Source: Effrenium voratum
Taxonomy: Eukaryota > Sar > Dinophyceae > Suessiales > Symbiodiniaceae
DNA: 64,000 bases
Direction: 5' to 3'
Assembly (NCBI GenBank): GCA_963377175.1
Contig: CAUJNA010001735.1
Span: 990,635 to 1,054,634 of the forward strand
Positions 47,341-64,000 of the stretch are shown here, one piece after another (the stretch's first letter is position 1; every line of letters begins with the position of its first letter). Under the pieces are notes generated by a model that was given only the letters and a program-made list of their open reading frames with translations, had not been told where the DNA came from and did no database searches. The translations under genes were made by a program, and so were the position numbers.

Positions 47341-48190
47341 ACACATATTCCAATTTAATAATTATAGATAAATATATATGATTTTTTTTTTTTTTTCATA
47401 GAGATAAAAATTGGTAATCCGAGTAAATGTTTTACAAGGCGGTTTCGGAACATTTCCAGAAAAATAAATGATTGTGATTTTGAGCCTTTGCCTTAGATCC
47501 TGCCCAAACAAAATAGTTCGAAATATTATACATTGTACTACATTAAAAACCAAATTTTAAAGACCCAAATATCTAAAAACAAATTATGAATAGAATTTCT
47601 CAGCACCTTAATATCTTTTCTAAAACATTACGATACACAAAACAACAATGTGTCTCAGGTATCCGATGCTAACATGTAGACATTTAGTCAGTGCAAATCG
47701 AACACCTAAACAAGGAGAGAAGAGAACCATAGATTATAAACCTTAAAGATCCATCCCCATATATAATTATTATAACGCACACGAAAACATCCTCGACCAA
47801 AAAACATCCTAAATACAAACAAAACCGAACTGATTTCGTTCAAAACGATAAAAAAATCGTCATTTAATTATAATATAATAATCGGTTCTCACATCACTAA
47901 ACTCTCGCAAATCGAGCACAATATTAAATAGCTATTTTTCTATCCTCCCAACAAATATCCTTCATAGATATATTCGTTCCATAATAAACCATGCCAATGT
48001 GATTTCGATTAATTTAAGGCATTAAAAATTCGAATCTCTTAAATTAAGCCGAAATTAACCAGCTTCATCGTCTCATTAACCTAAATCTTGTTACTTAAAT
48101 ACCCTTTCATAACATCCTTTTTTAAAGCTAAACCAAAAAAATCCTTATTAAAAAATAATATATTTAGGTATACATAATACCTAAAAAAAA
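47341..48190 (+). repeat. 850-bp repeat, copy A (AT-rich)
   Basis: This segment aligns along its full length with 49685-50528 in the same orientation. Shared blocks include GATTTTGAGCCTTTGCCTTA, CAACAATGTGTCTCAGGT and CTAACATGTAGACATTTAGT. Most differences are C in copy B to T in copy A, or G in B to A in A. Both copies end in the same hairpin (48163-48185 here). No coding sequence is seen. It may belong to a repeat family or a decayed element. Confidence 0.85.
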
Positions 48191-48439: not shown

Positions 48440-49050
48440 CTATACAATATCAAGTTCAATCAAATAAACAAATACACAAATAAAAAACAAAAACAAAACA
48501 AAACACAAAGAAAAATAAAATAGAAAAAAAACAAAAAAAAAGACAAAACAAACACAAAGACAAATATAAACACACAAACACACAAACACACAAACACACA
48601 AACACACAAACACACAAACACACAAACACACAGACACAAACAAACACAAACAGACACAAACACAGACAGACACAAACACAGACACAAACACAAACACACA
48701 ACACAGACACACAGACAAACACAGACACAGACAGACACAGACAGACACAAACAGACACAGACAGACACAGACAAACAGACAGACACAGACAGACACAAAC
48801 AGACAGACAGACACAGACACAGACACAGACACAGACACAGACACAGACACACACAAACACACAACACAGACACACAGACACAGACAAACACAGACACAGA
48901 CAGACACAGACAGACACAAACAGACACAGACAGACACAGACAAACAGACAGACACAGACAGACACAAACAAACAGACAGACAAACAGACAGACAAACAAG
49001 AAAGACCAACAGACAAAGAGAGACAGAGAAAGACACCGACAAAGAAACAG
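48440..49050. repeat. CA-rich microsatellite (CAAACA/CAGACA)
   Basis: A long array of ACACAAAC and CAGACA units with almost no G outside CAGACA and no T. Parts of the array are themselves duplicated (about 48660-48800 and 48850-48980). Long frames on the minus strand translate to Cys/Val/Leu repeats and are artefacts of the array. Confidence 0.95.
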
Positions 49051-49395
49051 AGACAAAAAGAGACACACCTCCGGCGCGCAGCGTGCCGGATTCTGATGTC
49101 CACATGTCATAGGTTTCGCCTGCGCACACACACGCGTCCGACTCCGAGCCCGAGAGCCGTGATGCAGACGGGCTGCAAGAACGCGCGTGCGAGCTCTAGA
49201 TTGCGCGTGGATCGAGTTGCACGCGGCCGCTGGCCGCTTGTCCCCTGGCGTCCTCGCCCAGTGGAGCCAATGGGAAACGGTTTGTCATGCGTTTGTCTCG
49301 GCGCTACCCTGCCGCTCTCCTTGCCCTCCACGACGGCTATATTCTGGCCCGTGGCCAGGAAGTGGTTGCAGGTGTTCGGCGGCCGTCTTTGGACT

Positions 49396-49684: not shown

Positions 49685-50528
49685 AACACATTCCAATTTA
49701 ACAATGATAGACAAATATGGACGTTCATACTCACAGAAACAAAAATAGGCAACCCGAGCAAGTGCTTGACACAAGGCGGTTTCGGAATATTTCGAGAAAA
49801 TAAATGATTGCGATTTTGAGCCTTTGCCTTAGATCCTGGCCAAGCAAAATATTTCGAAAGACTATGCGCTGCACTGAACTGGAGACCCAATTCTGAAGAC
49901 CCAAATATCTAAAGACGAGTTGTAGATAGAATTTCTCAGCACCTCAATATATTTCTTAAAACATTGCGACGCACAAAGCAACAATGTGTCTCAGGTGCCC
50001 GATGCTAACATGTAGACATTTAGTCAGTGAAAATCGAGCGCCTAAACAAGGGGAGAATGGACCCGTGGACTGTTAGCCTTAAAAGATCCATCCCCATACG
50101 CAATTACTACAACGCACACGAAAACACCATCGACCAGAAAACATCCTAGGTACAAACAAAGCCGAACTGATTTCGCTCAAAACATTAGGAAAAACCGTCG
50201 CTAATCATAACAACCGGTTCTCACATCGCCAAACTCTCGCAAAACGGGCACAATATTTCAACCAAAATAATAATGGAATAATTAAATAAGCTTTTTTTCT
50301 AATCATAGATACGTTCGTTCCACAACAAGCCATGCCAATGCGGCTTCGATTAACCTAAGGGATTATATGTTCGAATTTCTTAAGCCAAGCCGAAATTAAC
50401 CAGCTTCACCGTCTCATTAACCTAAATCTTGTTACTTAGATACTCTTTCATAACACCCTGTTTTAAAGCTAAGCCAATCAACCTCATTGGAAAATATTAT
50501 ACTTAGGTATACATAATACCTAAGAGTA
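49685..50528 (+). repeat. 850-bp repeat, copy B (less AT-rich)
   Basis: This is the partner of 47341-48190. It retains more C and G at the sites where copy A has T and A. It ends with a 9-bp-stem hairpin (50502-50524), and the retroelement LTR begins only about 24 bases later. The element therefore seems to have inserted next to or into this repeat. Confidence 0.85.
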
Positions 50529-50551: not shown

Positions 50552-50897
50552 TGTCAAGAGACGGCAAGGTGACGTCCCGTGGGACGCTGTGCACCGAACC
50601 CTCAAGCTTCAATACCAACCACGTAGAAAGGTGTATACGGACGATGCCGTTATAGCCGAAACCGTGTAAACGTTGTAAGGAAGAAGGGATGATAGTCACA
50701 ACAGTAGTCCTGACGGTGCGGCGCGAGCAGTCGTTTTCCTCCTAATGCCAATCACGGATATCCGCAGTCACACATCAGATCTTGAACCTCAATTGTGTCT
50801 TGAGCCAAATGGCGATCAAAGGAACTTGGGAAGCAACACCAACAAGGACCTCAGAACTGCTACCCAATTTCGGCACGGGGCCTAGAGGGTTTTAACA
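50552..50897 (-). repeat. Putative 3' LTR, 346 bp
   Basis: On the minus strand it begins TGTTAAAACC directly after AAATGGGGGA, a typical copia polypurine tract. It ends CTCTTGACA, so the ends form the imperfect inverted pair TGTTAA / TTGACA. To its left the sequence becomes AT-rich flanking DNA related to the 850-bp repeat. The second LTR is outside the window, so the call cannot be confirmed by comparison. Confidence 0.55.
50799..50813 (-). other. Spliced-leader-like sequence in LTR
   Basis: On the minus strand it reads GCCATTTGGCTCAAG. The dinoflagellate spliced leader ends GCCATTTTGGCTCAAG, so the match is 15 of 16 with one T missing, in the sense direction of the element. Relics of the leader are known to become fixed when spliced mRNA is copied back into the genome. 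The upstream CCGTA of the leader is not present. Confidence 0.55.
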
Positions 50898-50907
50898 TCC
50901 CCCATTT
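50898..50907 (-). other. Polypurine tract
   Basis: AAATGGGGGA on the minus strand lies immediately before the TG that starts the LTR. In LTR retrotransposons this purine run primes plus-strand synthesis. Confidence 0.5.
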
Positions 50908-51521
50908 GGGTCGCATTGTTCATCATGCGGTCCAAACACCACAAAACGTTCCACTGGCCACGGCTTCAACTACGAAATCGTGTCGTGCACTCTTTTACTT
51001 GCTATCACTACACCGTTCATTCGCTGTGAAACATGCCGGGTTCGATTGTACGAAAAGTGAAACATTCATCCTCCAATCGAAGCACACATCCATATGCAGG
51101 TGTATATAATACACTGTGGCCACTTCACTTGACCGCCAGTGAACATTCCAGCTGCCGCATTTGCGCATCGCGCAGCTGTCATCCATAAATGGGTTGGCCA
51201 CAAATGTCCACCATGCGCGCCCGCTTGTGATCGGTCTGCATATCTCCGGCAAAGAAACATCGGTGAGTAATCAATGCAAATCATAGCCATTCCAGATACC
51301 ATGGACAATGCATAAATAATGAAAAGATATCATCTATAAGGTAATAGTTCCATCCATGAATATCCAGAGCGTCATAGTCATCGGAATATGTAACCATGTA
51401 CACATCCAATCATCTTGGACACATGAATATAAATCATGACATAAGTCGTTCCACCGAAACAGTGTCGATGTGACGCAAGTAACAGATGGGGACTGGCCCA
51501 CATCGTACCGCAATCACATCT
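50908..51521 (-). other. Element 3' non-coding stretch
   Basis: About 610 bases lie between the last frame and the polypurine tract. No coding frame of note and no repeat are seen, apart from one copy of the GGGACTGGCCCA motif at 51489-51500. Confidence 0.5.
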
Positions 51522-53124
51522 TCACGAAGCATACCTGTCCCCGATGGACAGCCTATGGGTACGTCGGCGGAACTCCTCGTCCAAGTTCTTCTGGGCTTCT
51601 CGTGCCCGGACACACTTCTTGTTGTAGTCCTCTGGCAACCAGTGCCCTTTCCGAAGGCACCAATCCAGCAGGGGTGTGTCGCATTTGTTCGGGTCGACGG
51701 CCGAGATGATGGCGCTCACATTGACCGCGTAGCCATGCTTGCCAAGGTTTAGGCCATCCCTCACGAATGATATATACTTACAGTTGAAAGCTAGCGCAAA
51801 ACATCTGAAAATAATATCACCCACCGGGTGCACTCGGTCCTTGACCAGGAGCTTCATTTCTTCCTTGGTGACATCGAGGATTCTTGCTGCAATCCACAGC
51901 TTGTAGAATGTGTATAGTCCCTCGCATTTGTTCACCATCATACGAATATATTCGTCACGCTCCTCAACCGATCGGAAGGCTCTTGTCCGAACATTCTCCG
52001 ATTGAGAAATCTTCGTTATTGTTGATGGCAAAAGTATACCTTCCTGATCATGCTCAGTGATGTTGGGGTACCTCCTGAAGTCATTGTGGTAAGGGCAGCC
52101 CTCTCTCCCCTCGAGCTTGGCAATCATCGTTCTATCCTCACCACCTTCAAACATCCCCCACATCTTGGACAGCTGGAGTGCGATAAATCCTGCCATGTAC
52201 TGAGCCTCACGCGGCTCGTCAAGGCAGATCGCCATCCGTTGGGAACTTATAATGTCCCGTGACGCCAGATCGGTGTCGCGGTAATGCCAACCGCTGTCTT
52301 CTTCTTCTGACGCATAGCCGGATGTATATCCTTGCGTGTCCATGTCGTCATCTTCTCCCGGAACTTCCTCCGCTTCGTCTTCATCCTCCTGTGCTGCCGC
52401 ATCGTGGTTAGCTTCTTCCTGTGCACGCCTGGCATCTCCAGAGACGTTGGGGTTTTGGTTGTCCTCCTCGTCATCGGATTTGATGTGGATGTAGTATCTT
52501 CCGATGGAGATCAGTTGTGCCTCGCACTCCAGGCATAAGCAGAAGCAGGTGGGGATCGCGGTCGCACATGATGGACATATCCGGCACCTCAGTCCTTCCC
52601 ATGTCTCATCATTCAGGATGACGACTTTGCTGACTTCGTCCCGGACCTCGTTGACCTGTGCGTTGAACTCTTCCATCTTGTTGTTTCGATAGAGTTCGCA
52701 AGCACGATTAACCATGTCAACGATGTAGTGCAGATTATCGGCACCTGTCTCAGTCTCCGGCATCCTCTCGCTGATCTTTGCGACGTTCTGGAGGAACATC
52801 GCAGCCGACTCTTGGGATGAGTTGACAAAGCCAGGGCAGATCTCGTTCTCCACACACTTCGAGTACGCCCTCTTGATGTCAGCGTACTCCAGGCGCTTCC
52901 CTCCATTGCTTTTGCCAATCCAAATGGACTTGACCTCATAGAACGGGATCACGTCAAAGACCATGAAAGTCCCATTAGCCGCGACTCCAGCCCCATACCG
53001 CGCGAGGGTTGCACTGGGAATATAGATGATCGCAATCGGATCCCCTATCCTCACGTTCCGTAGCGTTGTCTTCGTCGCCACGTTCATCTCATCCCATGGA
53101 GCAAACGCCCCGAAGTGCAGTGCT
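51522..53124 (-). CDS. C-terminal part of extra frame: end of Tpt1-like domain, Cys cluster, unknown region
   Basis: The frame opens before its first ATG (53087) with ALHFGAFAPWDEMN, which continues the Tpt1/KptA-like domain from the previous frame after a single-base shift near 53125. The sequence up to about residue 57 (IGDPIAIIYIPSATL, VFDVIPFYEVKSIWI) matches the position of that fold's last strands. Next comes a cysteine cluster, RCRICPSC then CFCLCLEC (residues 168-188), likely to bind zinc. A strongly acidic stretch follows (about 204-265), then a helical region of about 250 residues ending IGDRYAS and a stop. The last region matches nothing I know. Confidence 0.6.
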
Positions 53125-53975
53125 AGCCTGTACCGCCATCGATTCCGCCGGGGACTAGCCCACAGCGTACGATGCTTGGCAGGTTTTCCACATACGTCAC
53201 ATGGAATGCTCCTCCGAGAGTATCACCCATTCTTGCGGAATACCTATTCGCCAGTGCGGATGAGCTCATGAATCCAAAATCACTGTGACCGGTTGTGACT
53301 CGGATGCACCAAGGTCTGTACCATCCATCGCATCTGTTGAACATCCTGTCGATGTCGTCCCGATCCACGCCAGCCTTGTTCATTTCCTCTCTGGCTGCCC
53401 TCGTGTCGTTCGGGTTCATGATGCTCGGAAACCTTGCTGCCAGAACCTGGAATCTCGACTTCTTGCTTCCGGATTCCTGCCACTTGATCACCTCCATGAT
53501 GCCCATGTATCGTTTCGCTCTCGTGGTGTATGGTGGGAATATGTCGTTGTTCCGGTCGTCAATGACAGCATCAATGTCGACCCATCCACCCTCGTCGCAC
53601 CTGAAAGCACTTCCTCGGCAATTGCCGATCTTGTGTCGAAGGACTTTGCATAGGTCGTGAGATAGCTGGTTTGCTTGGTCCCTTGAAGTAAATACCGAGC
53701 GATCATCACCAATCCTGCATAGTGGAGCACCGTCGAAAGGAGCAATGCAGAAGTTGACACTCTTGCCAAGTTGCATCACGTCCACTTGCTCAAGGATTGC
53801 ACCTTTGGGAAAGTACCTGGGGTCAACAATAGACGCGTATGCCCGTGGCATATGCACTTCAATCATGTCGCCGTACTTCGGGATGTAGCACGGGATGGTG
53901 TCGCATCCCATCTCAAGCGTCTTCTTGAATGTCCTGCTGTCCCCGCACGGGTTGTATGTGAGGTCGACGCCACCA
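53125..53975 (-). CDS. RNA 2'-phosphotransferase (Tpt1/KptA-like) domain
   Basis: Within the frame that starts at 54163, residues 167-340 carry the family's landmarks in order: LSHDLCKVLRH (family form LSxxLxxxLRH), EGGWVDIDAVI (DGYVxVDDLL), RVTTGHS (the R-x-x-x-GHS motif), and FHVTYVENLPSIVRCGLVPGG (H-GT-x-x-x-W-x-SIxxxGL). Tpt1/KptA enzymes remove an internal 2'-phosphate from RNA using NAD, classically after tRNA splicing, and use conserved Arg and His residues that appear retained here. The usual 'H-G-T' is 'H-V-T'. An insertion of about 85 residues lies between the second and third motifs. About 100 upstream residues are unassigned. Single-base shifts flank it near 53975 and 53125, so as assembled the domain is split. 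Confidence 0.7.
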
Positions 53976-55925
53976 CATTGTAAGCTCTCCTCCCTCAGCC
54001 GTGTCAGCCATCTCCACCAAATTAATAGTGTAGCTGTACATCTCAATTGTTTCTTTCCCTGCTTGTCCCCCTTTCTTTCTTTCCTTGGACGTTGATGAGG
54101 ACGGTTCCTCCGTATCCCCCATGTCTTCATCAGATGAAACAGGGTCACTGCTGAGTAGCTCACGGAGCACCTTCATCGCCTTCTCATTTCCAGCAGCCTC
54201 CTCAATGTCCTTGCAGTCGCCGTCGTGGGCCAGGTTCGCGCACTTCTTACAGATCCCCATATCTCCCATGCACTTCTCCATTGACTCCAGGAACCCTAGT
54301 GCCGCTCTCCGCCCGTCGATCACACGCTGCTTCTTGTCCTCCTTCTCAGTATTGGCTTGAGAACTTCGACTCGGGTCTGGTGCTTGACCCAGACCCTCAT
54401 CTTCGCCCTCCGTGGCCTTTCTCTTGGACCCTTGTGCAGAGGGCTCGGTGATCAGGGATCGTGGATGTCTGGGCTTGACCTTGTTCATGATGTCAAGCAC
54501 CTCCTTCGTGGGCACGCCGAGCTGTGCGGACGGTTTGTTCCGCTTTCTGTTCTGGCCCGTCGTGTGGGTCACGTTCCCAGCGAGGTGTCGCACTATTGAC
54601 TGCTCGAACTCCCTCTTGATCTTCCATGCATCCTTCCACAGTGGCAGTTCGTGCTGGAAGTACGACATCACCTCAAAGAATCCCAACACCATCTCGACGA
54701 CGTCTCCCAAGGATTCCTCGTTCGTGGTTTGTCCCAGGAGTTCATACATCGTTCCTTGGTCGAGCACACTCTTGATCCATGACGAATATGCCACATTGCC
54801 GAGATCCTTGCCTATCAAGAAGATGGACATCCTCTCCTCGACTCCCTCGGAATTCTTGCACACGATCACATCCCGGGATGCGCACAATTGCTTCCCGTGA
54901 CCGTTGTTGTAGAACTGCGCTGCTTGATCCACAGTCATGCTCACGAATCCCACGTGAGAAAGCTCCTTCTTCAGCCTTGAATACACGAGCTCCCGTATGA
55001 TCGTGATCATAGCCTGGATATTGTTGACGTCCACCATGAGGTTTTGAAGGTCGGGGATTGCCACCACGCATTCCGCGAAGAGGCGCGTGTACATTTTCTT
55101 CCCCTCGATAGACATTGCAAGACCGTTCGTGTCCGCGTTCCAGTTCGCGCAACAGTTCACGCAAGAAGAGGGATTGTACTTCGACTTCGGTCCGAGCACC
55201 TTCGACTTGCTCATCTGCATCTCTTTAGCGCAAAGTTCGCAGATAAATTTGCTGAGCTCCGTGACCGTATACCATCGAAGATGTTGATCACCGGCATCGG
55301 CTTTCCCAAAAGCATCCTGCTCGCCGTGTCCTTCATCTTGCCGCTCTTGTTTCCTCTTCGACTGTGCAGTGAAGGTCGGCTTGTACTCGAATTTCACCTT
55401 CGATTCCTCCATGTTCTTCGGGATGTTGAATCGAAGGTCGGGCTCGTTTATGCACGTCCCCTCCAGCTCACACACACACGTGTTGCTTGGTGCGACCGCA
55501 TCGATGGATTTCTCAATCAGCAGTCGTTTCAGAAGGAAATGTTGCAAGTTCGAGCTCCCAGGGATCTTGTAGTTCTTTCCTGTGAGCGCGTGGACCACGC
55601 GCCACAGGCGATCGTTCTCGGTCACCAGCGCGCCTGCCGCCTTGCAGATCTCACTAACCTTGTTGGCGATCGTCCCCAAGTCCCCTCTTCCACCATGGAA
55701 AGCAACATCGCGATTCACGCTCACCACGACCAGGCCCTTGCATGTGTTGACGAGGTCAGATATCGCCTTCTGCAGGGAGTCGATGATGGGGTTGGCGGTC
55801 ACCTGCCATCCGCATCCTCTCATGCACACCCAATCATATAGCGACATCCATATGTGCACCGACATTGGTGAGTCATCCATGTCTCGCCTCCGCCGTTCAG
55901 CGATGAGCTTATCCAGCTTCTGCAA
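53976..55925 (-). CDS. Extra frame, middle part, unknown
   Basis: This is 650 codons in the same frame as the upstream 460-codon frame, separated from it only by one TGA at 55926-55928; no ATG is needed at its start. It contains CxxC-type pairs (ICELCAKE, SCVNCC, ICKKCANLAHDGDC) and a basic, low-complexity stretch (GQNRKRNKPS) and ends acidic and Ser-rich before the frameshift near 53975. The body is mixed helix and strand. I recognise no domain. The continuous frame suggests one very large protein, with the downstream Tpt1-like part fused to it. Confidence 0.5.
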
Positions 55926-57308
55926 TCAGGAGATGATATTCAACGTGTCGTTGGGTGAGGAGACTTGCTCACTCGACCCATAGTATGATCTCTCCTCGAT
56001 GTTTGTCCATCCCTGTTCGTTGACCATCATCTGGAAGGTCTTCGTGCTCCCTTTCGAGTTGACGGCCCTCAGGGGCCAATCCAGGACCAAGAATCTCTTC
56101 TTGTGGATCATCATGTCGCGAATCGTCGCCTCGCCAATGGGGCTCCTCTTCTGCCTATTGATAATCCGGTTCAACTGTCCAGGTGCGTTGTCCGGGTTCT
56201 TCTCCGCCTGAATCAACGCGTTGATGGCTTTGGCGCCCGGAAGGCGTCCAGTAATCAAGCATCCTGTTTGGGAACACAAGAAAGCATACAGCTGTAGCCA
56301 TGCCGCATTTCCCTTCCCAACATAGGAAAGAATGATCTTCTCCGCGCTGGTCTTCTCCTCGAAGTGCAATAGCGAAGAGGTCAGGCATCTCAGCATACAT
56401 TCCCAATACGTTGCCTTCTTGCCTTCTGCAAGACACGGCCCAAATACAGTTTGTATGATTGGGTACCCCGTATTGTTGACTATGTTGAATTTCACATTGA
56501 CAGTCGCGCCGCCCAAAGTGGTACCCCCTTCGAATGAAGTGTAGGTATCGTGTCCAGCAGTTGGGTTGATAATTACCCATCTGTCGTCGTCCCCGCCAGA
56601 GTTCATTCGGAAAATGGAGTCGATGATCTCGTTGTCGATCTTGACAGCATCGCTGGCTTGCGACCCCCCACTTGGAGCTCCCGGCTGGGGGACTGGCCCA
56701 CCAGCGGTTTGGCTCCTTTGTCCGGAGCTTGATGCCGACTTCTGCTGTCGCTCCGTCTTCCGTGGCGGCTCTGTCTTCGATGAGCCCATCACCCACCATG
56801 TCGGCTCTTCCCCAACCACGAAATCCTCGGGGTACTTCTCCAGTTCCCTCTCGATTTCATGAATCGTGCAGTATTTATTCTGGAAGAATTCGATCATGGC
56901 GTCCTTCTCGGCCTTCTTCTCGATCTCCTTCATCCAGCTTACCCACTTGCGCCGATCTTGGTTCTCAGCGGCCCTGTCAGCCGCGTGCGGTGCCAAACTG
57001 ATGGAGTTGATGTTCATCTCAGGCAGCTTCGACTCATAGATCATATCGATGCACCATAGGAAATCCCTGGCGTACTCAATCTCCCGGTAGAGATCGTTCA
57101 GCTCCTTTTTGTCTGGACGGAAATAAGCTGTATACGACTGATCTTTGGAGTCCTTCTCACCGAGCAATGGCTGCAATCTATATTGTGATGAAGAAGACGC
57201 ATGAGTGTTCGCATCTGCTTGCGTCGATGACACCTGCCCCTCGCGCCGTGCTCGACGGGTCGTAAGCGCAAATAGATTTGCTGTTGGAAGCACAGCTGGC
57301 ATTCTCAT
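55926..57308 (-). CDS. Extra frame, N-terminal part, unknown
   Basis: It starts at ATG 57308, with an in-frame TGA two codons upstream, and runs 460 codons to a TGA. Residues 1-45 are low-complexity. Residues 55-165 are charged and helical. A Pro/Ser/Gly linker follows (about 180-220), and then a folded-looking region with WVIINPTAGHDTYTSFEGGT and LVLDWPLRAVN. I cannot name it. The 205 bases between it and the preceding frame hold no obvious gene. Confidence 0.55.
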   Translation of the reverse strand: MRMPAVLPTANLFALTTRRARREGQVSSTQADANTHASSSSQYRLQPLLGEKDSKDQSYTAYFRPDKKELNDLYREIEYARDFLWCIDMIYESKLPEMNINSISLAPHAADRAAENQDRRKWVSWMKEIEKKAEKDAMIEFFQNKYCTIHEIERELEKYPEDFVVGEEPTWWVMGSSKTEPPRKTERQQKSASSSGQRSQTAGGPVPQPGAPSGGSQASDAVKIDNEIIDSIFRMNSGGDDDRWVIINPTAGHDTYTSFEGGTTLGGATVNVKFNIVNNTGYPIIQTVFGPCLAEGKKATYWECMLRCLTSSLLHFEEKTSAEKIILSYVGKGNAAWLQLYAFLCSQTGCLITGRLPGAKAINALIQAEKNPDNAPGQLNRIINRQKRSPIGEATIRDMMIHKKRFLVLDWPLRAVNSKGSTKTFQMMVNEQGWTNIEERSYYGSSEQVSSPNDTLNIIS

Positions 57309-57512
57309 CCCTCATCAATGTATGCGGGTTCATTTCATCGATGCTGTACAGCTCATTTCTATAGTAGACAACCCAAGGTCAGTTCATGATGATCGTCGCC
57401 GGAACCACATTCGCGGAAGTCGATCTTGGGAGCGATCACATCGCGTGTTCACTCCCCCAATTCGTCCAACATCTTTACGTTGCTCCGATCGTGCCTCTCG
57501 ACTCTTGTCATC

Positions 57513-58170
57513 TCAGAACTCCTCAGGCTCCTCCACCTTTCTCGATGACGATGCACCTGAATGATAATCGCGATGGATACAATACACCTCCCCAACCGGG
57601 GTGTTCTGGTGGAATGCTGCTTTGAACGACCGTTCATCGTTGTCCTCAGCCACGCCTAGTGCGAGATCCCAGATGTTCGCGATTGATCTCAACATATCCG
57701 CCCCTTCCATGCAGTACTTGGTTACGTTGAGCAACTCGGGGTTCTTCGCCAGCATCATTGCCTCACCGCAAAGTTGGTTCAGCGCCGACACGATCTTCTT
57801 TCCCTTGCTGCAGAATTCCCTCCATCCAAGCATACATTCGTCGGCAGAAAGCTGTCCGAAAACTTTGCTGATGAACTCTAAGGCGACCCCTCATAGACTG
57901 CCCTTCACCTTTCATCATCCCGCGGCCCTTGGCAGAGTAGTACGCTGAGTATGCATAAATCGCGGGGACGCCGATGTCCTCGATCCACTTCACGCACGTA
58001 CCCAGGTCGCTGTTCACCTCCATCCTCTTGGGCATCCTCTTGCCATCCTCGATGGCGTTCTTCACCAAATTTCCCAAGAAGATTGCTGCTTGCCTGGATT
58101 TCCCAATAGGCACGCAGAAGAACTCATTCGTATTGACGACGTTCGGATTGGCAGTCATCTTGATGATATT
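57513..58170 (-). CDS. Extra frame of about 215 codons, unknown
   Basis: It starts MTANPNVVNTNEFFCVPIGK at 58170 and continues after a one-base shift at a short G run (57887-57890 on the + strand) into VFGQLSADECMLGWREF and ends KVEEPEEF and a stop. It is mostly helical with no recognised domain. It lies 74 bases after the end of the polyprotein and 200 bases before the next large frame, a compact arrangement. Confidence 0.5.
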
Positions 58171-58243
58171 CTCCAGAACCAGGAAAACCCAAAATAAGCA
58201 GCTGCAAATGAAGCCACGGAATTGTCCCAATACGATCCCAGCT

Positions 58244-58913
58244 TCAGATTGAGGTGACGAACTCATCCAGCTCCTCCTTGAAGCCTGGGGTTCGGGACTG
58301 ACCCAGCTCCCCGTATGCACCAGAGGTTCGGGACTGGCCCAGCACCTCGGTTGTGCAGTTGGGGTGGTGCAGATTTCGCTCGCAGTAGCTTGGCGCTTCC
58401 GCGATCTCCTTCGCGTAATGCAAGCAAGAGCGAGTTTCAACGGTGCCGGTTTGAGGCACCTTGCTCGAGCACGAAAACGGCGAAGGATCACACCCACAAT
58501 TATAGATGTGTACAACTGGGTTTCTTTGGTTTCCCGACCAGCACAAGGTCCATGCTCATGGTTTCCATTGCATTTCTTAGACAACGAGCCACCAAGTTCA
58601 AAGTTCCATGAGACAACTCTCCATGGTTTCTTGATTGGCATGGGTTTCTTCGCATATCTTTGTTTCAAGCCATAGCGACACCCATCAAACTCGTGACTAG
58701 TCCCATCATGCACGACCTCATACAGTCTCTCATCTTTCCAATAATCACAACTTCCAGGCAACTCAAACAAAATCGCAGCTCGTTTTGTCATGGCATGCCG
58801 TTTAATTTCAACGAACCGTTCAAATAATCTCCAAAATTCTCTTTGTTTGGCCTCGATTTTCTCTGCGGTGTCAATGCCGCGAGTCTTGTTGAGGCGTGCC
58901 CATGATGATCCCC
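58244..58913 (-). CDS. Polyprotein C-terminal extension, possible methyltransferase-like module
   Basis: After a one-base shift at a C5/G5 run (58910-58914) the polyprotein continues GGSSWARLNKTRGIDTAEKI. Conserved-looking parts are the preceding FFAGPCTG, then AILFELPGSCDYWKD, then FDGCRYGLKQRY, KPWRVVSW and HGPCAGRETK. The order PC, EL, YGxxQR loosely recalls motifs IV, VI and VIII of cytosine-5 DNA methyltransferases; this is only a suggestion. A further shift near 58513 leads to a frame ending DEFVTSI and a stop at 58244. That tail contains a duplicated GQSRT peptide from the GGGACTG motif. Confidence 0.45.
58294..58341 (-). repeat. GGGACTGRCCCA motif, two of five copies
   Basis: The 12-base motif GGGACTG[GA]CCCA occurs at 58294-58305 and 58330-58341. 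Further copies lie at 51489-51500, 56689-56700 and 63864-63875. All five have the same orientation and all lie inside the retroelement. I did not find it elsewhere in the window. Confidence 0.75.
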
Positions 58914-61053
58914 CGTGCAAGGCCCGGCGAAGAACAACAAATCGGAAGGTTTGGTAAGCACATGTCTGGCGATTCTCCCCCCGTACTCGCTCAGTAAGTC
59001 ATCAACTAAAGTTATGGTGACGACCTGCGGCCCGTTATGGCGGGCAAGGGCAGTGAACCAGTTACGCGGTTCGGAACATGCCATCAGCACGATGGGCCGA
59101 GCCAAGTCAACACTGTAAAGAGTGACGACTGTGCGAGTTCTCATACCAGGAAGCGAGACATGAACAGGAGCGCGAAGCACACCACCGTCGTGTTTGACCA
59201 TCGCGAGTTCAATACACGGCGCTAACTGTGGCTTGTGCTTCACCGCAATGCGATACGGAACAAAACAACGACCAGGGACAAGCTGCTCGTGATTGATATG
59301 CAGACAACGCATGAGCAATTTCAATCGGAGCAACGTTTCCAAAGCAAGGTCGTTAACACACTTCAACTCTACGCGCTCGTTCGACAGTTCTTCAACAAAT
59401 GCGGCCAGCACGGACTGCATGTCAACATCCCCGGACCCGACGTGAATTGGTCGTGGTCGCGGAGACCGTTCCCGCGCCGGTGCAGCGACCGGTACGGGAT
59501 GAAACTGCCAAACTGCGCGTTCAACCCAACCATCAATTCGCACACATTGTAGCCCCGGGTCAACTCTATCCTCAACTTTGAGCCATGACCCATTCTTCAG
59601 AAACCAAGTGGAGCGAAGCCACTTGCTCCCAAACGGTGTCATAACCGCGAGTGGAGGTTTTACACGCATTAATCTGGGTCCCTTGGCAACAACAACCGGA
59701 TCATGTCCTTCATCCTCATGCAATCCCTCTTTGGATGTTAATCCAGACCACCATAGGTCCGGGGGCATGATCGGTATGTGTGTGTACGGAAATGTTGGAA
59801 CTCCGTCAACTGTCCCCGAAGCGGTCTGCATGGTCCCCTTTATGGGATCACACGTGGGTGTGAGCGCCTTGAGGGTATCCGGATCAGACATCAAGCTCGG
59901 GTCAAGTAGACCAATCTGCAAACATGCATGTTTCCATTTGCGCCCATCGTTGAACGCCTTGGTGTAAATATCGGCCGCCATCCTGTCGGTGACCTCATAC
60001 GCCAAGTACATGTAATCACGTGTGAACATCTCATGCATCCACGAAATGCTAACACCATGGCTTCTCTCAAGGTAGCGCATCGTGGGGTTTCTCCCCGATC
60101 GCACGACACCGATCATAGCCTTGTTATCGTCATAGAACACAAAGTTCGGTGACTTCTTGAGAATCCGCTCTACCAGCTTGAGAGCGGGCATGCCCATCGA
60201 TCTCATGGCAACGTCGGCCGCAACAATCTCGGCCTCGGGAGTGGAGTGACTCACACAACCCTGTCTTTTGGAGCTGCCAGACAACGGAAACCGGGTATTA
60301 GGCCCTTGTATATTCAAGTGTCCACCAGAGGTGGAACGCAGCGAGTCAATGCATCCTGCAAAGTCAGCGTCCGCATACAAGGCCAAGTGCACATCGTCCA
60401 TAGGGTCTCCAACCCAACCGACCATGCGCCAATGTTTGGTGTGATGCACATAGCACATCAAGTGATGCAAACCCCGATCATCGGAGTCAGTCCACCTATG
60501 CACGTTCCGTGCTAGGCGATTCACTTGCCGCAACAAATCGAAGCGAGCAATCCGCGCACCGTACAACAACTTCATCAGTACGCTAGCGGCATGCGGAGCA
60601 AGGTGTCCACGCACGGGCTCCTTCATGGCCAACTCAGGAGTCCCTCCCCGTTGGTCCGGCACTGTGGCAGATCCGTCGGTGGGCACAAGATTGTTACACC
60701 AATTGCACACGACTGACGGCCCCTCTCTGGCAGGCTTCCGTGAGACGTGATTCTTTGTTTCTTCATGCAACTCAGGGGTGACAACCTTATTCACCTTCAC
60801 GTCGCCCGCCACTTCAAGATAGCGGTCGACACAGGAACGTAGGAACTGTTCCATGTCATAGGTCACCGTTGTTACTCGGTGTCCGTTCCCGAGAGTTACG
60901 TTTCCCTTGCTTTGATTGCAACCAAGGTACATGTCAAGTCCAGTCTCGGGCTCAATCTTCAAACGTGTACGCAACATGCTCCACCCTTGGGCAAGGTTCT
61001 TCTGCGGCCCTGCCATTTTGAAGTCGTCGACATACACAACAGAACAAGCTGGA
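58914..61053 (-). CDS. Copia polyprotein, reverse transcriptase palm end, RNase H and extension
   Basis: The frame begins with SVVYVDDFKMAG, the YVDD catalytic box of reverse transcriptase, and continues through the thumb and connection. RNase H is complete by motif: LYADADFAG, SHSTPEAEIVAAD, FYDDNKAMIG and ADIYTKAF, giving the acidic catalytic residues (about 238/240, 283, 318 and 371 from 61082). Then comes an extension of about 350 residues beyond RNase H (for example GLTSKEGLHEDEGHDPVVV, then ARPIVLMACSEPRNWF), which ordinary copia elements lack. It runs into the C-terminal module after the G-run shift. Confidence 0.85.
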
Positions 61054-61054
61054 G

Positions 61055-64000
61055 CTTTTCGTGAATGTACACTGAAGGCCATTCTTCGCCGATGGGCTCA
61101 AAACCAACGGCACGCACCGACTCATCGCAGTGCTGCTCCCAAAATGTTCCCGCATCTGGGTGTCCGTACAGCGCCTTCCTCAACGGGACGACGGGTCTTC
61201 TGTACTTATCCCATTTGCATTCACTTGGCACGGCCTCCGGTGGCAATTCAATCCAACACGGCGTGCCTCTCAAGGTGGCCTGTATATACGCCTGAACAGC
61301 GTCGGCCATCTGCACATCCCAGCCATCATGACAACCCAGAAAATCCGCCCAACGCGAGGCTTCAAATGAAGCAGGGGAGTTCCCCAAATCTTGAAACATC
61401 GCAGCCTCAAAGCTTTGGTTCTTCGCTTGGTTCCCCAGCAACACGCCTCTACCCTTGAACTTCCTCTTAGGATCACCAACAGGCAACTGTGAGTGCTTTT
61501 CAACGCAAATGCCATGTGCGCGAGCCATGTGTATTTCCTCCCCCTTCGCTTTTGCTGCTCTGGCTACAGCGTCATATTCACGCACCGCGCCAAGATCGAA
61601 GACCCCCTGGTCGATTAATCCCGACCACTCTTTCTTCATTGATGCCAATGCATCAGGGTTGGTCAACATCTCTTTCCAGCCTACCGGCCTGGATACTAAA
61701 GCGTCGAAGAATCGTACAACTTTCACAGCCTTCTCTCTGTGCTGTATTCGCTCAGAAGTCACGCACGGCATCGATGGGTACTTCTTGGCTTCACCGTCTT
61801 CGCCTATCGCAGGCATTGCGAGTGGCACTTTTCCAGAAACTATCTCAGCAGACTCCTCCCATTCATACCAGGTGAGGTCCGTCGATTCGTCGACCGATGG
61901 ATCCATCCCCGATGCCGTCTCAGCTTCGTCTTTATGACTCTCCATGACTGATGCAACCGCCTTCGTCCAGTTTGGAGTCGACTTTGATCGCTCCTCAGAC
62001 TTGAACTTCCAGGCATAAATTACCACCAGACACTCAAATTCTTTCTCAAGCTGAACGTTTCGTCTCATGACGTCTTTGGACTGTTTGGAATCCATGAGAA
62101 CAACCACCCCGTCGACAGGATTAACAACAATCCTGACCCATTCAAGCTCAGCCAAGTGCTTCCCATCCATTGGGTTCTTGATCTTTGATATGTTCTTCCG
62201 CAATCCCCAATTGTACTGCCATTCTCCTCCACCCCAGCGGTTCCGAAGCATCGCTCGAATTCTCTTACCACCGGGCATCTGTAATGTCCGTGCCTCTGCC
62301 GGCGCGGAAATATCAGACTCTTTACTCTTGGGATCTTCTTCTTTCCTTTTGCCACCGCCCTTCACCTCGGCCTTCTCTTCCTTGGTGTAATACTTACTCA
62401 TCATCTTCCATTCTTCAGGAGTGAACTCCGGAGGTCTCGATGTCTTCATTAGCCTGAATCCATCCTTCCCGACAGGATACGGTCTTCCGGCCTTGTCGAT
62501 TTTAACCTCCTTGCCATCATCGTTGACGTACGTGATGCCATCCCCAGGTAGTCCAACTGACACGTGTGGAAGGTCGGACTTTACAACCTTCTCATCGCCC
62601 TTAGGGTGTCCATCTCCCTTCCCTTTTGAAGAGCTCGGTCTAGCATCTTCTTCTCCTGCATGATCCCCCCGATCTCCGGCGTTTACCTCCGGGCCATCGT
62701 CGAGCAGTAGACCAGCGATCTGATCGACCTCATCGTCAAGCAGTCGCTTCTCGTCACTCTGCAGCAATTCAGGCTCGTAGTCCTCATCTTCGATCAGGCG
62801 GTCACGCGCATCCAGACCGATTGCATCGATAGACATCTCTATCCCTTCCAAAGTCTCGTTGGCAACCTTGTATTTCTGTTGTATTGGGAATGTCAGAGGA
62901 GATTTCAGAATCATCCTCTCCGTCTGATGTGGCATTCTCAACCGAGGTGGAACCTTTGCCTTCTTGATGTTCAACTCTGCACCCGCAAATGCAGTAAGTG
63001 CCCAAGCACGATACTTGTTTGCCCAATGCATACCGGTGCTCAACACATATCCAGCAAATATACCAGTCTCCCCTCTCGGCTCGAACTTCTCCCTCTTTCC
63101 CCCTCGTGCTTCACTCGGCTTGAAGTCCACTAGCGCACCAAAAGGTATCTTCTCGCCCTTGAACTCCTCGCCATGCAGCCTCATCCATACACTCGATCCG
63201 TTCACCTCTTCGATGTTCATGAGATGGCACAGAGTGGTGATGGCCTGCACCCAATAACACGTGGGTAGACCGGCATGTACTAGACAAGCCGAAGTCTGGT
63301 CAATGATGAATTGATTTGTTCTTTCAGCAAGGGAATTGTTCTGTGGCCGTCCAGGCAGCGATAGGTCGTGGTTCAGCTTCAGCTCCACGCACGCATTAAT
63401 CAGTTCCGGGCCGTCATCTGAATATACCTGCTTGATTTTCCTCCTCCCGCAGAAGTGCTTGATAGCCCTGACGACTGAGTCAGTGTCTCTTCTCGCGGTG
63501 GGATAAGCCATGATCATTCCGGTATATATGTCCCGGATGATGAGCGCATACCTGCCCTCCACTTCATGATCTCCTGATGCCGTCACAAAGTCGAACGTCA
63601 CCAGGTCACCGAACGTCTTCACTTCTCTTTTGAATGCTCCCGTTCGCGATCTGAAGTGCCTCATCTTTGCCTTGACGCATGATTCGCAGAAGGGATTTCG
63701 GTATCTGTGTGTAAGCAAATGAGCTATGGAGTTGGCGTCCTTCTTGAGGACTCCCACTTTCCTCTTTTTTGATGATCCTTCGTACACGTCTACTTCGATT
63801 CCGGCATCTGGATCATCTTCGTCAGCCTCTTCCTCGTGAGCTTCAGCATCACCATGTCGATGCGGGACTGACCCAACATCTACAGGTATTTCCTCAGCCA
63901 CGGGAGGCGGACGTACCGGACCGGCTCCTCCGGGTGGCCCGAAGTCGAATGCCCCGTCGTGGTGTACGCCCTCGGCCTCTGCGGACTCACCGACAGCGGC
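61055..64000 (-). CDS. Copia polyprotein: integrase and start of reverse transcriptase (partial)
   Basis: The frame is open to the window edge, so the start is outside. Numbering from a GTG at 63901: zinc-binding H61, H65, C72, C75 (HLLTH...CESC); integrase acidic residues in VTFDFVT (D104), VYSDDGPEL (D162) and SLAERTNQ (E193). A low-complexity acidic linker follows, then RPPEFTPEEWKMMSKYY and reverse-transcriptase motif VQMADAVQAYIQA (D867). Then the frame is lost at an A4 run (61054-61057), just before YVDD. Integrase inserts the cDNA and reverse transcriptase copies the RNA. No protease motif is in view, and gag and protease are presumably upstream. Confidence 0.9.

Follow-up and report, generated by a model that had tools for sequence, protein, structure and literature searches.

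We analysed a window of 64,000 nucleotides from the dinoflagellate Effrenium voratum (Symbiodiniaceae; GenBank assembly GCA_963377175.1, contig CAUJNA010001735.1, positions 990,635 to 1,054,634) and propose that its minus strand carries a long copia-type long terminal repeat (LTR) retrotransposon. The element would be one of a multi-copy lineage whose members have, behind pol, a second gene of ~2,200 codons, open reading frame 2 (ORF2), which includes a Tpt1-family domain and for which we propose an accessory, phosphate-healing role; taken as a whole, this reading seems to us rather probable.

Layout of the element

The minus-strand order is pol, ORF2, polypurine tract and a single LTR, with the following features (articles are cited here and below by PMC number, from excerpts):

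60962..63901, minus strand: upstream part of pol, in a frame that remains open as far as position 64000, the window end; integrase core ~63344-63556, RVT_2 start ~61082-61372
58791..61082, minus strand: pol, downstream part, in a second frame; its translation gives the presumed end of the reverse transcriptase with YVDD, the RNase H region and a tail
58471..58914, minus strand: pol C-terminal domain, GGSSWARLN ... CAGRET; no Pfam name (alignments A1 and A2)
58159..58470, minus strand: spacer, without a stop in the pol frame of this copy; a hydrophobic stretch lies directly before ORF2 (region-wise identities and hydropathy)
51522..58158, minus strand: ORF2, ~2,200 codons including the stop, a broken copy (tblastn tiling by P0106, P0009, P0182 and P0041; homologs)
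52900..53674, minus strand: Tpt1/KptA RNA 2'-phosphotransferase domain within ORF2 (PF01885; extent from tblastn and the KptA alignment), with a frame break inside
50898..50907, minus strand: polypurine tract AAATGGGGGA, by inspection
50552..50897, minus strand: candidate 3' LTR, TG...CA, 346 bp, TGTTAAAACC...CTCTTGACA, boundaries by inspection
50799..50813, minus strand: spliced-leader-like match GCCATTTGGCTCAAG in the LTR, compared with the DinoSL of PMC12014239
50547..50551, minus strand: AAATA, possible right half of a 5-bp target-site duplication, a candidate whose partner would lie outside the window

More than 13.4 kb of the element lies in the window, gag and the 5' LTR not included; the element would begin, with its 5' LTR, past position 64000, and no second copy of the LTR was found within the window. 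A sequence-only reading of this DNA had already noticed a polypurine tract followed by an LTR-like sequence, and this holds: the tract adjoins a TG...CA LTR, as in Ty1/copia elements, this being a single LTR delimited by inspection. Between the end of ORF2 and the tract are ~600 bases with no frame of 100 codons or more.

Within one pol ORF the integrase lies N-terminal to the reverse transcriptase, the order of Ty1/copia. In the upstream pol frame, the Pfam matches to rve (E 1.3e-4, residues 116-186) and RVT_2 (E 0.0011, residues 844-940) are both under the gathering cut-off, which speaks against our assignment; the best solved integrase chain matches pol with E 8.8e-4. The downstream frame, 58791-61082, has no Pfam match save a sub-threshold zinc finger, and the reverse transcriptase (YVDD) and RNase H motifs in it are presumed ones. 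Residues 1-170 of the database protein P0052 match 59420-58911 at 97% identity, and the minus-strand pol frames reaching ~58.2 kb, as previously described, are borne out. The pol stop placed at 58244, on the other hand, lies in a frame that relatives do not use: their frame, 57766-58920, the third of the frames here, is open in the window too; it takes in the pol C-terminal domain and the spacer and continues into ORF2, as does the gapless match of P0052 (query residues 3-298, 94%).

The pol C-terminal domain is strongly conserved and is represented by at least 20 residues in 80 of the 115 database proteins that match 57766-58920. Relatives from the ena, jgi, lgn and ncbi sources carry it with FAGPCTGGSSWARLN and CxGxHxHxPCAGRET. 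It has no supported Pfam match, and an identity as a C5-methyltransferase, based on a motif, was dropped, 0 of 12 members matching such a Pfam family up to E 10.

ORF2 is one reading frame, broken here and present in many copies

The sequence-only reading had placed two separate frames downstream of pol, one of 215 codons (presumably ~58158-57513) and a region of ~1,930 codons. The extent of the latter, with one TGA and two frame changes, stands (same-strand frames 51522-53087, 53123-54163, 53913-55925 and 55926-57308), but the separation does not. In tblastn, P0106 aligns to both 58158-57859 and 57887-56457, that is, to both of the frames, and the gene model P0180 opens with the 215-codon frame and closes with the last part of the 1,930-codon region, leaving out what lies between. 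P0182 (1,483 aa) is free of stops through most of the 1,930-codon region, with its last stretch in another frame, and P0041 terminates at the ORF2 stop. Since the gene models P0056, P0104, P0106, P0009, P0182, P0041 and P0167, from different copies, overlap and tile the whole distance from the pol C-terminal domain to the end of ORF2, we read a single ORF. The window copy is interrupted by a frame change near 57.87 kb, the TGA near 55.93 kb, a break near 54.0 kb and another near 53.13 kb, inside the Tpt1 domain; in addition, a stretch of ~130 codons at 57.58-57.18 kb, equal in length to its counterpart in P0106, is unreadable in a single frame. The break near 57.87 kb and the one at 57.58-57.18 kb come on top of the one TGA and two shifts counted earlier. 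Less broken copies of ORF2 are present among the database proteins.

A search with the frame 53916-55925, in which the 7998 best candidates were scored, gave at least 51 matching database proteins, in clusters of up to 240 members; besides the 115 matches to 57766-58920, 24 database proteins match P0041, a relative of the last part of ORF2. Because all three parts find protein matches, the reading of ORF2 goes beyond chance, and ORF2 is multi-copy. One relative, P0183, is named as Effrenium voratum and is 86% identical over 46% of the query P0041; taken with the leader-like match in the LTR, this makes a dinoflagellate host likely. The gene model of P0183 joins a C-terminal piece of ORF2 to a PPPDE peptidase domain (PF05903, E 5.4e-26), which may be a wrong gene model or a fusion with a host exon. 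We would expect the many copies of this element to give rise to spurious gene models in genomes of this kind.

Beyond the Tpt1 domain, ORF2 has two Cys-rich stretches. Against Pfam, P0009 and P0106 match no family up to E 10 and P0011 gives one sub-threshold row. Profile searches of the PDB with alignments A1-A4 returned nothing credible, the best being dynein (E 0.047) and ribosomal S7 (E 0.21).

pol and ORF2 as probable parts of one element

All 115 matches to 57766-58920 were mapped, and a protein was counted as spanning if it had at least 20 residues of each part. By this count 18 carry both the pol C-terminal domain and ORF2, 62 carry pol only and 35 carry ORF2 only. Among the 18 are P0077, P0080, P0082, P0086 and P0088, which are 42-46% identical to the window; P0077 maps by tblastn onto 59084-57540, covering pol, spacer and ORF2. 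When the N-terminal part of ORF2 (ORF2-N) of this far family (P0077, P0080 and P0082 used) was compared with that of the near family, hhalign gave E 1.3e-20 at 33% identity. A pol-ORF2 junction common to so diverged a family makes a chance nested insertion hardly likely. That the pol and the extra frames belong together, as had been suspected from the sequence alone, is upheld by these spanning proteins, and we hold it very probable that they form one element with ORF2 as its own gene.

The alternative is that two unrelated elements meet here, a copia ending near 58.2 kb and, next to it or nested with it, another repeat with ORF2. The one-sided matches (62 and 35 of 115) would fit such an arrangement, as would the many ORF2 gene models that begin exactly at the ORF2 ATG and the fact that an LTR pair is not seen. 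However, the spanning proteins include the family at 42-46% identity, and the single polypurine tract and LTR come after ORF2. We regard two elements as very unlikely; the one-sided matches may be explained by truncated gene models or by elements lacking ORF2.

The region-by-region identity to the window, in 12 rows (7 near and 5 far), bears on how the single element is built. In P0053, P0055, P0056, P0057 and P0059, the pol C-terminal domain is 89-94% identical, the spacer 43-57% with gaps, and ORF2-N 75-88%; this pattern fits two genes of one element with a loose spacer between them, as far as sequence comparison can indicate. The remaining near rows, P0052 (spacer 94%, ORF2-N 71%) and P0064 (79% and 54%), deviate, with gene models that seem to run out of frame within ORF2. 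Identities across the five far rows are 68-74% for the pol domain, 26-30% for the spacer and 21-38% for ORF2-N. Several of these points count against a single element under selection: the one-sided matches, the two deviating near rows, a far ORF2-N hardly above the spacer, and the nature of the linkage evidence, which consists of gene models that can misjoin exons rather than of DNA from a second copy. Since far ORF2-N and spacer are so similar in identity, protein-level constraint rests on the near rows and the hhalign match, and the far family is better evidence for linkage than for constraint.

Some observations accompany the linkage. Some contig sizes are common to pol and ORF2 matches (e.g., 88,005, with pol, ORF2-N and mid-ORF2 proteins), equal size being only a proxy for the same contig. 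The hydrophobic stretch before the ORF2 start, 58159-58230, has an identity of 57-100% across the seven near rows, in every one of which it is more conserved than the remaining spacer; it may be a leader peptide or an RNA signal for ORF2 expression. Compared singly, ORF2-N has no significant homology to the downstream ORFs of families C, D and E. With pooled profiles, hhalign of AB against C+D gave E 0.015 at a probability of 2.9%; the score was 21.6, where 100 column shuffles reached 16.2 at most. AB against C+D+E gave E 0.012, and the reversed controls were at 0.59 and 0.58. This is suggestive of ORF2-N-like domains behind pol in families C and D as pooled; if they exist, the second gene of dinoflagellate copia elements would be an ancient one.

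A Tpt1-family domain in ORF2

Profile searches on the extra frames, which the sequence-only reading had proposed, found PF01885 (Tpt1) in the window ORF2 frame at E 5.6e-8 and 33.5 bits, above the Pfam cut-off of 26; P0168 scores 33.9 bits and P0182 31.9, and PF01885 is marked on 12 of the 24 proteins that match P0041. For alignment with E. coli KptA (MAFFT), 12 relatives were tried and 10 aligned, P0170 and P0172 being dropped because cut points were not found. LRHK, a KxSRF-type motif and C[IV]RxxxGHS are kept in all 10, and GWxDID, HxT and GxR in 9 of 10 each, so that motifs of both lobes are present. Of the Arg-His-Arg-Arg catalytic tetrad of Tpt1 (PMC6333775), Arg-His is found in 10/10 relatives and the last Arg in 9/10; the window copy is broken within the domain.

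Several results weigh against this assignment. The tetrad's middle Arg is ambiguous, with two candidates: MAFFT places a later Arg, which has no counterpart in P0179 and P0181, whereas the motif points to KxSRF, and taking KxSRF as the middle Arg implies an insertion of ~40 residues in the RNA lobe. HVT stands in place of the HGT of the Tpt1 family. The hhalign comparison of the family with KptA alone is weak (probability 5%, E 0.0078, 56 columns), and with NCBIfam NF002014, a bacterial/archaeal equivalog model, P0168 and P0182 score no more than 12.8 and 11.6 bits, far short of the cut-off of 239. With phmmer, no PDB chain was matched, and the predicted structures of P0168 (pLDDT 30.5) and P0009 (35.1) are unusable. 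Taking these together with the Pfam result, there is by sequence a Tpt1-family domain in ORF2, with most but not all catalytic positions assignable.

A proposed role for ORF2

We infer that ORF2 serves the retrotransposition cycle as an accessory protein, and the earlier suggestion of an accessory protein gains support from the Tpt1 domain. Copia elements are primed by half-tRNAs. In the mechanism we propose, the Tpt1 domain would act with NAD+ on the primer tRNA or tRNA half and take off its 2'-phosphates or terminal 2'/3'-phosphates; alternatively, its substrate would be element RNA that has been cut and religated. Phosphate removal would leave a usable 3'-OH and an unblocked template for the reverse transcriptase, and the remaining ORF2 would hold or target the RNA. 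Some Tpt1 enzymes have terminal 2'/3' phosphomonoesterase activity (PMC9458441). Priming of copia by half-tRNAs in a dinoflagellate host is not addressed among the literature matches listed or in the excerpt of PMC4247016, which tells against the scheme, and we offer phosphate healing for priming and template only as a tentative possibility.

The same domain could instead counter host defence or cap RNA, by ADP-ribosylating 5'-phosphate ends or resetting nuclease-damaged RNA, and so protect the element RNA rather than serve priming. Tpt1/TRPT1 does ADP-ribosylate 5'-phosphate RNA in vitro, but human TRPT1 has no 3'-end activity (both PMC9458441), so that end specificity varies among family members. 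We think such a protective role unlikely.

ORF2 could also be a virus-derived env-like or structural gene, in an element that is an infectious or endogenous virus. Over 19 residues, the hydropathy of one ORF2 stretch reaches 1.64 in P0104 and P0106 and 2.04 in P0056; given the usual mark of 1.6 for membrane segments, a membrane segment is possible, but P0182 and P0168 reach only 1.28 and 1.58. The env-like ORFs of plant and rotifer elements do sit between pol and the 3' LTR (PMC5408684, PMC7264820). Against a viral gene, no env or capsid family matches above the Pfam cut-off in the pieces scanned (best Astro_capsid_p, E 0.57, and U83, E 0.04), and no relative was confirmed in viral contigs: the IMG/VR scans gave 2, 3, 1, 4 and 17 pattern stretches, none confirmed by tblastn, so the capture from a virus that had been suggested from the sequence alone finds no backing there. 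A scan of genome contigs likewise gave 57 pattern stretches with 0 confirmed, and tblastn of one ORF2 frame against phages gave no match. We judge a viral origin to be quite improbable. A further reading, which we consider highly improbable, takes the middle of ORF2 for its working part and for an SGNH/GDSL-like esterase of the sort found in rotifer LTR elements. A fold comparison of the P0009 model gave SGNH and APOBEC rows of equal weight and was not used.

A spliced-leader-like sequence in the LTR

The match GCCATTTGGCTCAAG starts at LTR position 85 and equals the last 16 bases of DinoSL (PMC12014239) minus one T. It is the only one-edit match to the 16-mer in the window, and 2 of 150 simulated first-order Markov windows had any (0.013 expected); these statistics are post hoc and concern a single LTR. 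Neither the full 21-base DinoSL pattern with up to 3 mismatches nor the 16-base pattern has any match in the window, because the LTR match is without one T. The 15-base form, which was designed after inspection of the LTR and is therefore also post hoc, has 3 matches with up to 3 mismatches against 3.36 expected, which is chance level; only the one in the LTR is exact. A leader inside an LTR is not reported among the literature matches listed or in the excerpts of PMC6050394, PMC12014239 and PMC3229502.

Combining this match with ORF2, we can imagine a dinoflagellate copia lineage that brings along an RNA-repair protein of its own and has the host spliced leader built into its LTR: its transcripts would be trans-spliced, the LTR-encoded leader would preserve the identity of the R region for strand transfer, and an NAD+-dependent enzyme supplied by the element would heal the ends of primer or template. 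We regard this picture as speculative and rather doubtful. If the leader is real, it would be relevant to how retroelements manage in hosts whose mRNAs are trans-spliced.

Sequence beyond the LTR

Just beyond the LTR lies a direct repeat of ~850 bp (79%; 47343-48184 versus 49686-50523). Its differences are one-sided, with A/T in the first copy and G/C in the second 102 times and the reverse 19 times; transitions make up 102 of 140 substitutions. This bias resembles cytosine decay in one copy. At 48532-49094, a long (ACACAGAC)n-type microsatellite gives rise to spurious minus-strand frames.

Comparison with known systems

Ordinary copia elements finish soon after RNase H. The present element shares with Ty1/copia the integrase before the reverse transcriptase, the polypurine tract and the TG...CA LTR, and differs in the second gene of ~6.6 kb between pol and the 3' LTR. 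Chen et al. reportedly described heat-activated copia elements of S. microadriaticum in 2018. Copia elements are the most abundant retrotransposons of Symbiodinium, where they are said to be without a methyltransferase domain (PMC5890265, as far as the excerpt goes). SymbioLINE-Dnmt and SymbioDIRS-Dnmt3 are likewise dinoflagellate retroelements with a nucleic-acid-modifying enzyme (PMC5890265), but they combine LINE or DIRS with a methyltransferase, in contrast to copia with Tpt1 here.

LTR elements with extra sense ORFs downstream of pol and before the 3' LTR have already been described (PMC7264820, PMC5408684). The plant additional ORFs and the ORF3 of bdelloid Vesta and Juno, with GDSL or DEDDy domains, belong likewise to LTR elements (PMC5408684), whereas ORF2 here has ~2,200 codons and a Tpt1 domain, which is not named in the excerpts of these papers. 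No title on Tpt1 in a retrotransposon is among the literature matches listed; an earlier description of the element is possible.

The role of Tpt1 outside fungal tRNA splicing is unclear (PMC6333775), and the Tpt1 of ORF2 would supply a natural enzyme for testing it. Through a conserved gene of 2,200 codons that includes such an RNA 2'-phosphotransferase domain, a retroelement would be connected with the repair of RNA ends. With Tpt1/KptA, ORF2 shares PF01885 above the cut-off, the motifs of both lobes and most positions of the tetrad; it differs in being embedded in a giant retroelement ORF, in having HVT for HGT, and in a probable insertion of ~40 residues in the RNA lobe.

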